From Umbelopsis ramanniana AG (taxonomy: Eukaryota > Mucoromycota > Umbelopsidomycetes > Umbelopsidales > Umbelopsidaceae): a DNA stretch of 64,000 nucleotides. The DNA lies in NCBI RefSeq assembly GCF_025399195.1, contig NW_026252104.1, forward strand, positions 62,001 through 126,000, written 5' to 3'. The notes under the pieces were generated by a model. The model was not told the DNA's origin. It saw only the letters and a program-made list of their open reading frames with translations, and ran no database searches. Numbering within the stretch: position 1 is the stretch's first letter; the number at the start of each line of letters is the position of its first letter. Positions 21,065 through 30,011 of this stretch are shown here, one piece after another. A program made the translations under genes and the position numbers.

Positions 21065-23803
21065 CTACAAGCACTGGGAGTAGTCTAAAGAAAGTTACGA
21101 GTAATCGGCGTTAATTAATTTTTTTTTGGGCACTTGAGTTTGTGTCGGGTCATGAACATAAAATGGGATACTTACAAGGGTTGCTTACTGTGCAGGTGTA
21201 TCCACCAGAGCAGCATGTAGGACCGGAGAAGTCTACGAAGACAAGTAATTAGGTTTTGAAGGGGAAGAGGGAAAAAAAGGTAGAAATTGACACTTACTGA
21301 TACCACCGCATTGACCCCATCGAGCAGCGCAAGCACCAGTGCTAGTAGGAGATGCACTATAATCGATTATCAGAACAAGCTCTAAACAGACGAAAATCAA
21401 TGAAATCCAAAACTTACGAGGTGGTAGTGGTGGTGGTGGTAGTGGTAGTGGTGGTAGTAGTAGGCTTGGAGGTGGTGGTGGAAGAGGAGGTTGCAGTTCC
21501 AGTAGCAGAAGTAGTGGTGGTGGTGGTGCTGTTGTTGAGCAGCATGTCAATCACGGCGTGGGCAATAGCAATATCAGCTTGAGCCCAGAAACGATGGTAA
21601 GTAATGACAGGAGCAGCTCCGCCGTTGAGGTAAGCTTGGACCTTGGGGAAGTTGGGATCAGTCTTGTACTTGCTGCGAATAGACAAGAAAGTACTGCTGC
21701 TGTCAATCACGTCTCCATTAGGCATAGCACCAACCCAGCCGGAAGGAACGGTCAAGGCATCGTTGAATTGAGAGTAATCAGCGCGGGTTTCAGGAGCGGC
21801 AACACCTTGGCCATCATAGTACAGAGTCCACATTCTATCAAGCAAATTTTGAGCCAAAGTAGTAGCGGAGGTATCAGCAGCCTTAACACCATAGTATGCC
21901 AAAGCCTTAGCAACAGCAGCGGCAACACCGAGATCTGGAGCGCCGGTGGATTGAGAAGTGACAACAACGTGAAGGTTAGTGTTAGCAGCAGGGCTGGAAG
22001 GATTCCATGTCTCAGGCTGACCAGTCCAGTTGAGACCTCCAGGCATTGAGAACGAGCCATCAGAAGTCAAGGTAACGACCTTCTTAACCCAGCCGATCCA
22101 GTTGGTCAAAAGAGTAGAAACCTTGGAATCGCCAGTAACGTAGTAATATTCAGCAACACGTTCCATGGACCAGGCTTGCATACCGACTGAAAGTACAATT
22201 GTTACAAGGTGATCAATAGAAATACATGAACTGGGGATATGTTACTTACACCATTGGTTGGACGGAGGGTCATGGTACACAGGTTCCCAGTCGTAGCCCA
22301 TACCGTAGAAGGTAGGAGTTCCAGCAGGGTAAGTCTTATAGGCACCTTGCCAGCTGTTGGTAGCACCACCAGCGATAGCACCTTCAGAAGATTGAAGCCA
22401 TTTGTAGAATTCGATTTGACGACCAAGCGATGTGGTCCAGTCACCAACAGCTGAAGGCGAAGCAGGCTTGAATGCCGATTGGGTGGAGAGGACCCAAGCA
22501 GTGAGAGGGTTTTGGTAACCAAAATGAGCATAAGAGGAACCAATACGCCAAGCCCAACCGCCGCTGGTAGACAAACTAGGGATATCAAAAGATGTTAACA
22601 TCACGCTTGTGGTAAATCAAATGACATAAACACAGTATAATATGAAGCTCTACCTTCCACCGAATGCATAGTACCATGAGAGAAGGTAATGAGCAGAGGT
22701 CTTTCCGGTTCCTCCGGCGCAGGATGGGCTTTGGCAGTCCATAACCTTAAAGTACTTATCAAAGAAAGCATATCTCAAGTAATCACCAAGTTTGGCTGCT
22801 TTAGCGACAGTGGCAGCAACATCAGCGGACTTTCCTTGAGCAGTAGCCCAAACATTGGCCCAGTAAGCAGCTTGAATACTTCTAGCATCAGCATCAGGGG
22901 CAGTGGTATATTTCCATTGCTTGGCATAAGTTGGAGGAGTAAAGAGAGAAAGGTAACCAGTACCGTCGTTTCTACCCCAGGTGAAGGTCTCACAACTGGG
23001 CTGAGGAATCGTCTTCCATACAGATTCGCTTGGGCCACGTTGGAAGGTGTTGAAGTAAGATGGCTTGGTGGTGCCATCTCCGCAGTGACCAAATCCATAC
23101 CAATTGTCAACATCGAGGATCCAATGAGCACCATAAATGTTAGCGTTGCCATAAGCAGACTGCAATTCGGCGGCGAGAGGGTCCTGGCCGACAGGAACGC
23201 TTTGATATGCCGGAGGATAATCGCTGATATTGTCAGATTCTAAAGCCAAGCTGGCAGGGCTGCTGGGATTGTAGTTGGAATTGGTAGGCTGATCTGCAGC
23301 ACTTGGGATCAAGTAGGTCTCAAGAATGCTCCAGGCCTTGTTGAAACCAGTCCAATCTCCAGTGACTTTTCCGTTCACCTGTGTAAAGATTATTAGAAAA
23401 CTATGCTCAAAGGATAAAGCTCGTTGTAATGTTTATACATACGGCTTCAAGCCAGATATAATAGGAAAAGGCCTCAGAAGTCGATTCGTGACCATAGTCA
23501 GGAGCCTCGCACATCAAAGTTTCAACACTATGGTACGGAATGCCGAGAGAGCTGAAGTATCCATTAGTAGAGTTATGGATCTGAGAGTACAGAGTCTGGA
23601 AACGAGAGGTGTAGCCAGGAACTGCACGCTTGTCGATAGGAGAAGCAAGGACACTGTAACCTAATTTTTTCAAAATAAATGCAAGGCGATAGAAACAAAG
23701 AAAATTAGTCAGAAGCTTGATTCCATCATTTCAAATTAGCCCTTTGAACATAGCACTTACCAAAAGTGACGGCCAAGGCAGTGGAGATTGTTGTGAATTT
23801 CAT
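21065..23803 (-). CDS. GH48 cellulase with C-terminal CBM1
   Basis: Predicted 738-aa secreted processive cellulase (reducing-end cellobiohydrolase family GH48) joined by a Thr-rich linker to a fungal CBM1. Exons on minus: 23803-23761, 23660-23443, 23378-22654, 22575-22250, 22186-21418, 21356-21298, 21232-21176, 21084-21065. Signal peptide [20 protein letters not shown], then a Kex2-like IDKR site. GH48 signatures: [20 protein letters not shown] with the proton-donor Glu at about 77, [45 protein letters not shown]. The linker is a run of over 20 Thr. The CBM1 ([28 protein letters not shown]) is split over three small exons and keeps its aromatic residues and cysteines. TATA box 43 nt before the ATG. 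Complete and likely active; unusual family for this kind of fungus (see findings). Confidence 0.93.
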
Positions 23804-23845
23804 CTTGACTGGATATGATATCGTCTTTGAGTGCTAGAGTTTGCT

Positions 23846-23854
23846 CCTTATATA
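23846..23854 (-). promoter_or_regulatory. TATA box of the GH48 gene
   Basis: On the minus strand TATATAAGG lies 43 nt before the ATG at 23803, at the spacing expected for a short fungal 5' leader. Confidence 0.55.
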
Positions 23855-24053
23855 CATATCTTGTTCGTGTGTCGAGGAGACTGTCTCTTTCAGTTGACCG
23901 TGTAGCCACTGCGCGCCCAAATATCAATTCCATTGTACAAAATGCATATTGCCACGCGAGCACTTTCGTTTTCATCTCAAAGTCATGAACGCAGGCGTAC
24001 AAATCTCAGATCACTTGTGGCGTGGAATTTAAACTCGCGTGATGAAAAAGAAC

Positions 24054-24069
24054 GTGGGGTTAGCCCCAC
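24054..24069. promoter_or_regulatory. Inverted GTGGGG/CCCCAC pair, possible carbon-repression site
   Basis: GTGGGG-TTAG-CCCCAC is a perfect 6-bp inverted repeat about 250 nt upstream of the GH48 start codon. GTGGGG fits the SYGGRG core bound by CreA/Mig1-type repressors in other fungi. That it acts here is inference from motif and position. Confidence 0.3.
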
Positions 24070-25054
24070 CGAAGCGATGGGATCTGGGAAGATGGTGGAC
24101 CTCGTGTGCTTTGTGGACCGGCATACAATGTAACAATGAATGCCGTAAGCCAAAAGCAAAAGCAAAGACACGAAACGAAATGAGCTCTAATGTAAATGAT
24201 GGATTGACTTCATATCAGCTAAACAGGCTTGAGATAAAATGCATTCATCATATATTTCTAGGATGCCATCAGTGATGAGCCGAAAAGGGACCAGTTTGAA
24301 TTCCCATACTGGTCCTTGTGTAAGGGCGTCTTATTAAAATTACACATTACATGCCTAACCGCCACAGCATGCTAAACCATCGCCTTCTGCGAGCAGCAAC
24401 CGTGAAACGTGACCCATTAATTTGTGCTGCCCAGGTAACTACCCCATACACAAAGGAAAATAAAGATGGGTCACGATGGCTTTTCATCCATCGGTGACAA
24501 GGAGGTTTTGTAGAGAAAATTTGCCTTTTACCCCAGTTGTACCCCGTTCACACCCTCAGGTCTTACTAGTACCACTCTAAATTTTCCTTGTTACAGCAAC
24601 ACACTGATTCAGTTCTCCATGTACCCTTCCACACTGTCTTGGAAAAATTGTATGCTAGCCGCTGATCATTTTGAAGCAAACGGATTATCGATGGTTTTGA
24701 AAATGGCAGCTGCAGCCTCTTCAACCATCTCATTCACAAGAGTGACACAATAGAAAGCGATCGTTTAATAAGTAATATTTACTCATCAGGCGGGGTTTAC
24801 GTCGACCTGCTCGCCCAGTAGGTACCTTTTAGGCATTGAGAAATTTTCCATTGCAATACCTGGTCTGGATGGAGTTTACTTTTTTTTATGTGTGATACAA
24901 TTACCTTAGCCGAGAAACCGTACGCTTATTTCATAAGCATTCAATTCGTGACACTGGGAGCACAAATCGTCACTTCCTTCCCACCCTATTGATTGTATGT
25001 CATCTCTCACTTTGAACACCATCCCATAACAAAATAATCTACGACTACAGATGC

Positions 25055-25083
25055 TTATGTTTATGTTTATGTTTATGTTTATG
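25055..25083 (+). repeat. (TTATGT)n microsatellite
   Basis: Almost five perfect tandem copies of the hexamer TTATGT, 34 nt beyond the stop codon of the chimeric gene (on its 3' side). Probably a simple repeat in the 3' flank. Confidence 0.9.
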
Positions 25084-25116
25084 AGAATACTCTATATTGA
25101 TATCTGAAAAGCAGTG

Positions 25117-27528
25117 TTACTGTCGTTCAAAATAAATAGGCTTATCCACAGGTTCTAAGGAATCGGGCCTCAGCCGAGTGAGGGATAGGCATTGCAGACT
25201 ATTTTTTGTATCAATCTGATCTTGAAGTAATCGCACCGAATATACATATGGTAACTTCCGACCAATGACCTTACTAGAGACCTCGTCGAGATCCCACACA
25301 TACCCAACTATTTGATTTGGATGAAGTTTCCCATCCAGTAGTCCTAACTTCATACGTAACAGAGCGGGTGTTCCATTCTGAGTCGTTTGATTCTCAACAC
25401 GGGCCACGCCGAAATGCTTGTTGTGAAATAATCCCATAAAGTTATGCGCAAATTCCTCATTGTGACCATTGGCACTCGCTAAAGCGATCCTGGTACGTTC
25501 CTCTGCCACTTGTGTTTCGAAGCGATGTGTTTTCCACTTCTGAAAAGCTGAAAGAAAATTTTTTGGTCGCTTATCCAGTAAGAGATCCATAGCACACCAG
25601 GGGAGGATATTGCATAGCGGAGAGTCTTGTTGATTGGTGAAAAGAATGACTCCGCAACCTTGAGCTGGAGCCATAATGCAAGACGTTGTTATCCCGGAAA
25701 TTTCGCTAAAATGACTACATACTTGCCCGTCTCTGAATGTGCTGATAGTCCATCCAAGACCATGCAATGCTGTGCCGAAATGTGGCTGACTCGATGAGGA
25801 CGAAATACTATGTCCTGCAAAAATATAGTTTGAAAGGGTATCGCGAGAAACTGGTGGCACACGCTCTAGAGTCTCTGGGCCATGCATTAGACTTCTTATC
25901 CACTCAGCCATGTCGTGCACGGTGGAAAACATTCCTTTAGCCGCGGTATATTGGCTGTACAAAGTTTCAAACATCGGAATTGGAGTGTCTATCGATTGAG
26001 TCCCATAGTCGTCATATGTATATCCTGTTGCGTAAAATTTCTTGTCCCGATATCTTGTCTTGGAGTAAACTCCAGTATTCTTCAGTCCCAACGGTGTTAA
26101 AATATTTTCTTGAAGTTGATCCTTCCAACTCTTGAATGCAATGGCTTCCAAAACACGAATGGCTACAAGGTATGTAAGTTCGTTGGGAACCGAGGTTGAC
26201 CTAAATGATTCAACCGCGGCTATATGTTTGAGTCTTTCCATAATCAAAGCGGGAACCTGCTTGTGTAGCCAATCTTGAGTAACTGATTGACCATGTGGGT
26301 ATATGTCGGCTACGGCTAGTTCGTTATAAGGTATTCCCTAAATGAATAGTATACAGTCGATGAGCATGAACATTACATAGTTTTTTGCATTCCACACAAG
26401 ATCACTTCTACTCGTACCGTTCTATTCGCCAAAAGATCTATTATGGTTGTATACTTCGAAGCAACTTCATCAGACAGTGAAAATTCTGGTATATATGTAG
26501 AAATTGGCTCGTTCCATCCAAGTTGTCCGCTCTCTGCTAACTGTGCCGCTACTGTGACCGAAAATTCAATATACATGAGATCGATTCATCGACTAAGTGA
26601 CAAATTACTCACAAACAGCAATAAATGAATGCGTAAACTCTCCTATTGGCCATTGCGTCTTTCAGAGTAGAATATAATGATTAGCAAAAGCATCAAGTTA
26701 GGGAACCTATAGCATAGCTCCACTTACGGTTTCCGAAACTTTTGTCATAGTATCATTTGCTTTCCCGAAGCCTCCTTCGAAGATGATATTTCCTTCTCTT
26801 ATTAGTGCGTATGCAATTCCACGAGCTAATGTAAGGTGTAGCTGACATTAGCAAAACGAGATAAAAAGATCCACTCAAAGACCAAGTGGCTCACCATGAA
26901 ACTTTTGACAGCGGTCTTCAGCATATGTTCTAAATGTCTGAACAAGCTCAAAATCGGTCATTTTACTTGCACCTTTTCTTTGCAATGAGGTAAATACAGC
27001 GTCCCAGTACTCAAAATCAGCAGACATGAGAGGGTCATTTGCATCGCTCGCACGCTTCAAGAAAACCTCTGCATTGTCGATATTAAGACCAACATCAGCG
27101 ATTTCTGCGGTAAATTCTTCTCTCCGAGATAGATTTTCGTTCAGCAGATGTCGCTGCTTGGTTGATTTTGACTTGGAATTCTGGTTCATGGTCAACTCAT
27201 GTATCAAACGGATATATGTGGTACGAGAAGCAGTAAGACCAAATTCTTCATTTAACATGTCTGTGAGTTCAAACTGATTTTTGTATTGCTGCTCTTTTAC
27301 AATCTCCAGGATCCGTTGGTGATGAACTTTATCTATACCACGCCGAGTACCGATCGGCTTATTTCGTTTTACAGAGTTCGGATCATTGGTTCTTTTGACA
27401 AGATTGCGAATGGCTGTTCTAGAAACTCCCAAATGTTCTGCAACTTTTCCAGGCTTCCACTTTGCATCTTTAGTAAGTGTGATTGCTTTGTTCACTTGCT
27501 CTGGAGTCAAATGCTTATTTCTTCCCAT
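25117..27528 (-). CDS. Chimera: Tc1/mariner-type HTH N-terminus fused to inactive serine beta-lactamase-like domain
   Basis: Predicted 710 aa. Exons on minus: 27528-26895, 26825-26728, 26658-26613, 26551-26418, 26337-25117. Residues 1-160 look like the N-terminus of a Tc1/mariner-type transposase: two helix-turn-helix units (KVAEHLGVSRTAIRNLVKR; ELTDMLNEEFGLTASRTTY) and the lead-in RREEFTAEIADVGLNIDN, which stops where the first catalytic Asp strand would be; no DDE triad follows. From about residue 190 the same exon runs into a class C beta-lactamase/LACTB-like fold: FHARGIAYALIREGNIIFEGGFGKAND, given here as its role near 210-236, then PISTYIPEF, LLANRTGIP, ILTPLGLKNTG, GLGWTIS. The catalytic S-x-x-K is replaced by E-F-T-H (251-254), and Y-x-N by V-P-N (354-356). 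So a DNA-binding pseudo-enzyme is a possible outcome; function unknown. The fusion lies inside exon 1, not at a splice junction. Confidence 0.7.
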
Positions 27529-27599
27529 GTGTATCCATGTGTGGATTTGCAATTATCGATATGAATTGGGAGAATTTCAATGGCAGGGCAATAAATTTT

Positions 27600-27655
27600 A
27601 CCGAATTTTTTGGCTGTTGGCTCAAAATCATCGAATTTCTTTTTTGTGGACCGAG
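27600..27655 (-). mobile_element. Possible terminal-repeat remnant of a Tc1-like element
   Basis: Read on the minus strand, the segment begins CTCGGTCCACAAAAAAG and continues to TTTTGAGCCAACAGCC, ahead of the transposase-type ATG at 27528. This wording resembles ends of fungal Tc1/pogo elements (GGTCC-A-rich, then TTTTGAGCC). No inverted partner was found downstream, so this is only suggestive. Confidence 0.25.
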
Positions 27656-27795
27656 CGAATTGTAGATATTCATCTTTGTTTTGTAAGCCAACATGAAATT
27701 ATAGCTAAAATGTTTATGTAAATTCGCATTCAAATGTGGCATACTCGTGCTAGACAATTAATCAACATGCACTTCGTGAAATTATTGCCAGCAGA

Positions 27796-27805
27796 TATAT
27801 AAAAG
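27796..27805 (+). promoter_or_regulatory. Orphan TATA box, forward strand
   Basis: TATATAAAAG followed by a CT-rich leader and then ATG at 27891, which opens only 15 codons (stop at 27936-27938). It has the look of a real promoter in this window but no forward gene follows; the next gene is the converging sugar transporter. Confidence 0.3.
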
Positions 27806-28034
27806 CTGTATCCCTTGCACATTTAGCTTGTTTCTTTTTTCTTTTGTCTTTTGATCTTTTCTTTCATTTTATATTGGCTTTTCCGCATTAATGTGGTCAT
27901 ACAGTATAATACGATACTTTTGCGAGTTAACAAGATAAAAAGAAGGAACGGTAGTATTAGACAGAATACATAAATATATAGACTTTGATTAAACGAAATA
28001 CGGTCACTATCGGTGAAATAATCACTGCAGTTAA

Positions 28035-30011
28035 TTATTTGCCGTGGTTTGCAGCAATTTCTTGGAAATCATCGACGTTGACACCAAGCTCCATAGCGGC
28101 ACGCTTTTCTATGGCTGGATCGTCTCCAAAAACGATTTCCATGTCTTCCAAAGACCGACCAGCTGTCTCTGGAATGAAAAAGCAAGCAATTCCCATAAGA
28201 ATACAGCATCCACCAAACAAGAAATACAATCCACTAGATGTAGCAGCGATAACAACAGGGGTGATAAAAGTGATGACAATGGCAAAAAGCCAATTGGCAC
28301 CGGTAGTAAGAGAAGTAGCCTGATTAAAATGGAAACAAAACCGTTGTCAGTGTTCTGATGGCACTTCTTTGACAGACAGATGTACAAATTACCTTTGCTC
28401 TGACTCTCATTGGGAAAATTTCGGCTGGATAGATGAATCCACATGCTCCCCAAGAATAGGCAAATGCCAAAGTGAAAATGAATATGAAGGCGATGACTGT
28501 ATTGGTGGCAGCTGTAGAGTTCATGACGAGATTGCCATCCACCATAGAGGATTGCGTTTGGAAAACTCCTCCAATGACGAACATAGCCAAAGCTTGAATA
28601 AAAGCACCGGATATCAAAGTGGGCTTACGACCCCAACGATCAATCCAAATAACAGCAGGTAGGGTTGCAGCGAAGTTACAGATACCAGTGACTCCAGTAG
28701 CGACCAAAGAGTTGGTTGTTCCAGACAAACCGGCTGCTTGGAATATAGAGGGAGCATAGTAAAGCACACCATTGATACCGGTGAATTGCTGTGCGGATTG
28801 AATGAATACACCAATGATAGTTCTCTTTAGAACTGTGCCTTTGAATAGCTCAGCATAGCTGGAGTTTTAAGAAGTGGATGTCAGAGTCAGTACATATATG
28901 AGGTTTGGTCACACGAGAATTCTGAAGAGGGCATGTACGACTCGCTTGATATGTCAGATTACTTACCTTCTAATTTCCAGCTCGTGTTCCAGTAGGATTT
29001 CATCATGAATTTGCTTGAATTCCTTCTGAACTTCAGGGTCGTTGATATCACCATCAGCACGCATGTCAGCCAAAACCTGCAAAGCTTCCTCATTTCTGCC
29101 TTTGTCTGTAAGCCAACGTGGCGAGTAAGGCAACCAGTACATTGCTGAACCAAGACCCAAGGCAAAAATCATTTGAACGATAAAAGGCACACGCCATGCC
29201 ATATCACTCTGGATATTGGAAGTTCCAAGATCAATGACTACACAAAAAAAATGGACCCGTGTAACACATGAGATAGGGATCGAGATCGTAGTTTCAAATT
29301 GTCTAAACAAGCAAATTTGACTCACAGTAACTGACAACGATACCGAACGTTATCATGAGCTGGAAAAGACAAATAAGACGGCCACGAATTTTTGGTGGTG
29401 CGATTTCAGAGCTGTACCATCAACTGTTAATAAACACTATGAAGCAACTGGATAAATTTATACTGGTCCCATTACTTACTGATACAACGGAACAGAATTT
29501 GTCAAAAGACCGTTACCGAAACCGCCAATTAATCGTCCAGCTACCATCATACCAAAGTTGGCGCCAATGATTTCGAACATGATACCAAACGCATACACGA
29601 ATGATCCCGTCATGATAGTCCATTTTCTACCAATTTTGTCGGCAAACCAGCCAGTCAACAAAGATCCCAGCATAGCCGTGAGAAGAATAGCGGCGACAAA
29701 TAGACCCTGATTGTAACTGTTACCATCCAAGGGAGGGAATCTAGACGTAAACTGGCTCATGGCCAAGATACCAGATATTGCACCTGATATATAGGTGAGC
29801 TACATGTGTTGCTTACTTTACGCAGCATCGTGTAGCTGCTTACCTGTGTCATAACCAGAGATAAACTGTAGAGAAAAAGGGAGACAATCAGTAAGGCGGA
29901 GTGATTGGCATTAGAAATAGAATCGAGAACACCTACACCACCAACAGCGGCTAGAATTGCAGCAACATAGAGGGCAAACTGACTGTGCTTCTTAGGGACC
30001 TCTTCAGTCAT
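28035..30011 (-). CDS. MFS sugar/hexose transporter
   Basis: Predicted 502-aa plasma-membrane transporter of the sugar porter (SP) family of the major facilitator superfamily, 12 membrane segments. Exons on minus: 30011-29937, 29865-29844 (22-nt exon), 29783-29480, 29411-29326, 29237-28967, 28858-28393, 28319-28035. Seen: GFISGYDTGAISGIL in TM1 (split over the 22-nt exon), ADKIGRKWTI, GRLIGGFGNGLLTNSVPLY, SEIAPPKIRGRLI, SPRWLTDKGRNEEA, QQFTGINGVLYYAP in TM7, DRWGRKPTL, PAEIFPMRVRAK and PETAGRSLEDME. All SP family motifs are kept. The QQFTGIN motif suggests hexose uptake; exact sugar unknown. A TATA box lies at 30059-30066. Confidence 0.93.

Follow-up and report, generated by a model that had tools for sequence, protein, structure and literature searches.

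Gene model and domain organization at the locus

We analyzed a stretch of 64,000 nucleotides, hereafter the window (C18:62001-126000), from the 22,837,565-base assembly of Umbelopsis ramanniana AG, a soil fungus of the Mucoromycota (Umbelopsidales). The gene under study lies on the minus strand and encodes two helix-turn-helix (HTH) units followed by a domain resembling class C beta-lactamases and other S12 proteins. Its features, in positions of the window, are as follows.

26895..27528, minus strand: exon 1, from the ATG at 27528 through two HTH units and a linker to the first helix of the lactamase-like domain
26728..26825, minus strand: exon 2
26613..26658, minus strand: exon 3
26418..26551, minus strand: exon 4
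25117..26337, minus strand: exon 5, ending in the stop codon
27385..27513, minus strand: HTH unit 1, residues 6-48, three helices (HTH_32 and HTH_23 below cut-offs; predicted helices)
27184..27336, minus strand: HTH unit 2, residues 65-115, three helices (Arg_repressor and HTH_Tnp_Tc3_2 below cut-offs; predicted helices)
26956..27183, minus strand: fast-evolving linker, residues 116-191, containing the fusion point
25522..26955, minus strand: class C beta-lactamase/S12-like domain, residues ~192-576, split by the four introns
26623..26646, minus strand: SxxK site, here IGEFTHSF (ExxH)
26176..26205, minus strand: YxN site, here FRSTSVPNEL (Y and N lost)
25705..25713, minus strand: HxG/KTG site, here HFS
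25120..25521, minus strand: C-terminal tail, residues 577-710, a helix and then strands in a low-confidence model

Splicing of the four GT-AG introns preserved the phase and gave a product of 710 amino acids plus stop, which matched the deposited U. ramanniana AG hypothetical protein P0001 with 100% identity and 100% coverage. Exon 1 formed an open frame from the ATG throughout, and no stop codon separated the HTH and lactamase-like parts. An earlier note on this DNA had described one exon running from the HTH units into the start of the lactamase-like domain, with the fusion point inside that exon and the remainder of the domain carried over four introns in phase. The gene model agreed with each of these points and placed the fusion point in the linker. 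The same note had seen a truncated lead-in to a transposase catalytic core at residues ~116-156, which found little support: the transposase profile match described below stops at residue 142. These residues were mostly of low confidence in the structure models and were poorly conserved, 20 of the 41 being identical to those of the Umbelopsis protein P0004.

The downstream neighbor (21414-23432, minus strand) encodes a glycoside hydrolase of family 48 (PF02011, E 2.1e-110 and 3.5e-84 in two ORFs) with a Thr-rich tail. GH48 enzymes are mostly bacterial and rare in fungi; therefore, horizontal transfer could be asked for this neighbor. Upstream, 28324-28866 (minus strand) is an exon of a multi-exon sugar transporter (PF00083, 1.6e-38).

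Relatives, conservation and the lactamase-like domain

Searching with the whole protein retrieved 12 proteins among 7993 scored candidates. Both parts were present in P0002 (Umbelopsis, 88% identical), P0003 (Umbelopsis vinacea, 87% identical, 650 aa) and P0004 (70% identical), while P0005 (407 aa, 51% identical) covered only the portion encoded here by exon 5. The lactamase part gave 22 matches among 7997 scored candidates and brought in a further relative, P0018 (51% identical), which is a metagenome ORF of 641 residues from a 2442-base contig. Its listed start falls within HTH unit 2, and from there it reads through the lactamase part in one uninterrupted frame across all four intron positions; P0018 presumably derives from a transcript. 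The N-terminal part matched four proteins among 2122 candidates (P0013-P0016, 71-84%), identity marking all of them as orthologues, and that search yielded no free transposase. Altogether, N-terminal sequence was available for nine proteins, five of which (P0001-P0004 and P0018) carried both parts in one chain, and the start MGR(N/K)KHL was common to P0001-P0004 and P0013-P0015.

The deposited model of P0003 is without 60 residues (~244-303). This gap equals in length our exons 3 and 4, where the altered SxxK site lies, and would be due either to exon skipping or to a faulty gene model.

The presence of the same order in P0002-P0004 and P0018 answered the search for orthologues that the earlier note had proposed. 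An assembly error near the fusion, which that note had named as a possible refutation, is contradicted because deposited proteins of other species carry both parts. A relative with the two parts in separate genes was likewise not found among these proteins; two metagenome contigs have separate protein entries for the parts (P0013 with P0017 and P0015 with P0019, matched through contigs of equal size), probably because a prokaryotic gene caller meets the introns. The conserved order suggests a working DNA-targeted protein and not an accident of assembly or annotation.

Conservation was judged from the protein identity profile. Compared with P0004, identical residues numbered 82 of 110 in the HTH part (6-115), 39 of 76 in the linker (116-191), 288 of 369 in the lactamase-like part (192-560) and 84 of 150 in the tail (561-710). 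The corresponding values against P0018 were 21/42 for HTH unit 2, 11/72 for the linker, 194/368 for the lactamase-like part and 69/150 for the tail. The HTH and lactamase-like parts were thus conserved to a similar degree, and the HTH part differed from the linker with Fisher p values of 0.0017 (P0004), 0.0007-0.0012 (P0013-P0016) and 1.7e-4 (P0018), which are not independent because the sequences share ancestry. Within HTH unit 1, residues 21-31 and 33-45 were identical in all seven aligned sequences, and linker residues 126-191 had a pI of 4.75. Selection acting on both halves would be expected to produce such a profile.

The match to PF00144 (residues 209-543, E 6.8e-32), together with the predicted model, indicated a class C beta-lactamase/S12 fold. 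We then compared the three catalytic sites. SxxK was replaced by ExxH in all four fused proteins that could be aligned there, P0003 being without the stretch, and ExxH with the following SF was kept in all four, P0018 included; SxxK was present in 80 of 80 bacterial relatives. Both Y and N of the YxN site were missing (4/4 fused proteins aligned). The HxG/KTG site read HFS in three of four fused proteins and SYS in the other, and HxG was present in all 80 bacterial relatives. With SxxK, HxG and the Y and N residues of the YxN motif gone, the domain is a predicted pseudoenzyme; the earlier note had missed this loss of motifs.

Elsewhere in the genome, two adjoining lactamase-like genes (C108:19921-21036 and 23735-24847) each gave a match within one open frame and had SxxK. 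The fusion protein matched neither of them at E <= 10.

Transposase-like features of the N-terminal part

A Pfam search of the first 156 residues returned HTH_32 (1e-6), HTH_23 (2.6e-4) and HTH_Tnp_Tc3_2 (0.033), all below curated cut-offs, and PF13565 is listed by the database for P0013-P0015. Of the domain search proposed earlier for the spliced protein, the PF00144 half gave a clear match and the HTH half gave matches below the cut-offs.

The NCBIfam model of IS630 transposases aligned positions 4-133 of its 299 with residues 15-142 of the window protein, spanning both HTH units in order (E 2.6e-10; 40.3 bits, below the model's own 100-bit cut-off). It matched all seven family members scanned, the window protein among them (best E 3e-11), the scan set being seven of the nine proteins with N-terminal sequence, with P0003 and P0018 left out. 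In a second protein set it matched four of five, P0018 being without it among the best 25 of 39 matches. The model was found in none of eight shuffled controls, whose best match to any family was 0.024. Weaker matches of the window protein were to ArgR (4.7e-5), IS481 (1.7e-4) and also IS21. Where families were ranked (P0001, P0004, P0013 and P0014), IS630 was the top HTH-type family by at least four orders of magnitude within NCBIfam, which comprises prokaryotic families and places eukaryotic Tc1/mariner models outside the comparison. In PHROGs, the best match was a DNA-binding protein family (1.2e-5), followed by a transposase family (2.6e-4). When the N-terminal part of P0014 was compared by tblastn with 72,556 plasmid records (E <= 0.1), the sole match came from Deinococcus psychrotolerans, whose IS630 transposase aligned with residues 10-133 at 25.8% (E 0.05). 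Profile comparison by hhalign with the genome's own IS630-like HTH frame on C53, which itself matches the IS630 model at 3.1e-4, scored 9.4, under the best of 50 shuffles (17.2).

Structure prediction with AlphaFold2 gave two three-helix units (helices 9-20, 26-33 and 37-48; 67-78, 85-96 and 102-120), with ten-residue pLDDT means of 76-88 over residues 11-50 and 68-78 over residues 71-110, in a model that was poor overall (mean pLDDT 56.6, pTM 0.29). The top three Foldseek matches of this model were the Pax6 paired domain, the bipartite DNA-binding domain of Tc3, and Pax5; their E values of 0.015-0.022 are not significant, and no match reached 0.001. VIA-align did not single out Tc3 or Pax from other HTH chains. 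Residues 1-64 are basic (pI 11.66).

The IS630 matches and the unmatched shuffles thus spoke for the homology to transposases that had been read from the sequence, and the Foldseek and plasmid matches added weak support. The transposase ancestry of the HTH part is moderately supported, and graded so because the IS630 match lies below its cut-off and the hhalign comparison with the C53 frame was negative.

We further examined traces of mobility. The N-terminal part, the whole protein, the DNA of exon 1 and the upstream DNA each matched only their own locus in the genome, counts that are lower bounds. No inverted repeats flanked the gene; four imperfect pairs of 14-16 nt were found in 24700-28100. 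No DDE family was matched at E <= 1 in the whole protein, and the IS630 match stopped at model position 133-134 of 299. Two IS630-like copies were observed elsewhere, one with an in-frame stop (C4:318155-319021) and one whose frame stays open for 159 codons, spanning both HTH units, with no DDE_3 match reported (C53:114228-114566). The latter could be another freed HTH. According to the available text of a published study, the sequenced Umbelopsidales genomes hold "just a few copies" of Tc1/Mariner elements, versus >200 per genome in Mucorales (PMC7928374).

Proposed origin and comparison with known systems

We consider an old capture the probable explanation, in which a class C beta-lactamase/S12-type gene would have acquired, from an IS630/Tc1-like transposase, the DNA-binding region with its two HTH units. 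The direction, from transposase to host gene, is the one we infer, and the event would be at least as old as the ancestor shared by Umbelopsis and the P0018 lineage. The catalytic domain of the transposase and the transposon ends would have been lost, and the lactamase-like domain has lost its catalytic motifs. The two HTH units would most likely bind specific DNA sites, and the pseudo-lactamase domain may bind a ligand or partner, or oligomerize. The outcome would be a DNA-site-binding regulator or a DNA-bound scaffold, presumably with a nuclear role. In part this bears out the earlier note's suggestion of a captured transposase giving a DNA-targeted ligand-binding protein: the single gene, the fusion point inside an exon, the shared order in relatives and the homology to transposases are supported, and the binding of DNA and ligand is predicted. 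A more far-reaching proposal, which we regard as doubtful, would place the protein in a novel class of eukaryotic regulators that bind DNA. Here a paired-type domain from a transposase would put a dead PBP/beta-lactamase fold on chromatin, and the former active-site pocket would sense a small molecule. Bacteria of the soil or associated with the fungus may supply such a molecule, for example wall peptides or D-amino-acid compounds.

The fusion may also be real and conserved while its HTH part is not transposon-derived, being instead a bacterial-type or host double HTH that resembles IS630 and Pax. The weaker ArgR, IS481 and IS21 matches fit this account, as do the order of the two PHROGs families, the lack of a close free transposase in the N-terminal search and the negative comparison with the resident C53 element. 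However, the lead of IS630 over the other HTH-type NCBIfam families where these were ranked, its coverage of both units in order and the plasmid match to an IS630 transposase (E 0.05) argue against it, and we judge it unlikely. That gene prediction merged two adjacent genes, the HTH frame being a separate, decaying transposase remnant, is hardly credible. The two metagenome contigs with separately listed parts would agree with such a merger, but exon 1 has no stop codon between the parts, a single ORF of P0018 runs from HTH unit 2 through the lactamase-like part, four deposited Umbelopsis proteins keep the fusion, and the HTH part is conserved about as well as its partner.

The lactamase-like domain might still be an enzyme with a changed active site, S and K having given way to E and H, either DNA-targeted or with a vestigial HTH. 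Retention of ExxH and SF in the four fused proteins aligned, P0018 included, is compatible with this; against it, all three S12 motifs changed together, and we know of no S12 enzyme with ExxH. We therefore think an altered enzyme quite improbable, and retain the captured transposase HTH joined to a pseudoenzyme as the preferred explanation. If the protein binds DNA, it would show compactly, in a single gene, how a transposase DNA-binding domain turns into a host protein. It might then also be the first regulator known to use a dead penicillin-binding fold.

Host-transposase fusions are a known kind of protein. SETMAR, KRABINER and F-box genes of Caenorhabditis likewise encode single proteins in which a Tc1/mariner-type part is linked to an unrelated host domain. 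For the F-box genes, the available text of PMC12062965 describes an HTH part that is N-terminal, as in the Umbelopsis protein, and states that specific members need this Tc1/mariner HTH for diverse processes; the word "lactamase" is absent from the main text. The Umbelopsis case differs from these fusions in being fungal, in its S12 pseudoenzyme partner, in its two HTH units and in having no second copy detected. Fungal host-TE fusions from a kingdom-wide Pfam screen also combine a TE-type and a host domain in one conserved protein, helicases being the commonest TE-derived domains in the available text (PMC10799480), whereas the Umbelopsis protein keeps a transposase-type DNA-binding unit. The main text of that study, supplements aside, contains "lactamase" and "Umbelopsis" 0 times, and its screen could have missed this fusion because the HTH matches lie below Pfam cut-offs. 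Among the papers listed in searches of the open-licence literature, the order of HTH and pseudo-lactamase was not found described, and it appears to be new.

Compared with the S12/serine beta-lactamase-like family (LACTB, AmpC, the PBP homologue 2qmi and the FmtA-like 4gdn), the Umbelopsis protein has lost the catalytic motifs and gained an N-terminal double HTH. The MocR/GabR regulators of bacteria likewise fuse an HTH to an enzyme-derived sensory domain (PMC5320631, available text), which is a functional parallel and not membership, since they are bacterial and have another HTH family and another enzyme fold. In its logic the Umbelopsis protein would resemble MocR/GabR, and in its origin the host-transposase fusions.
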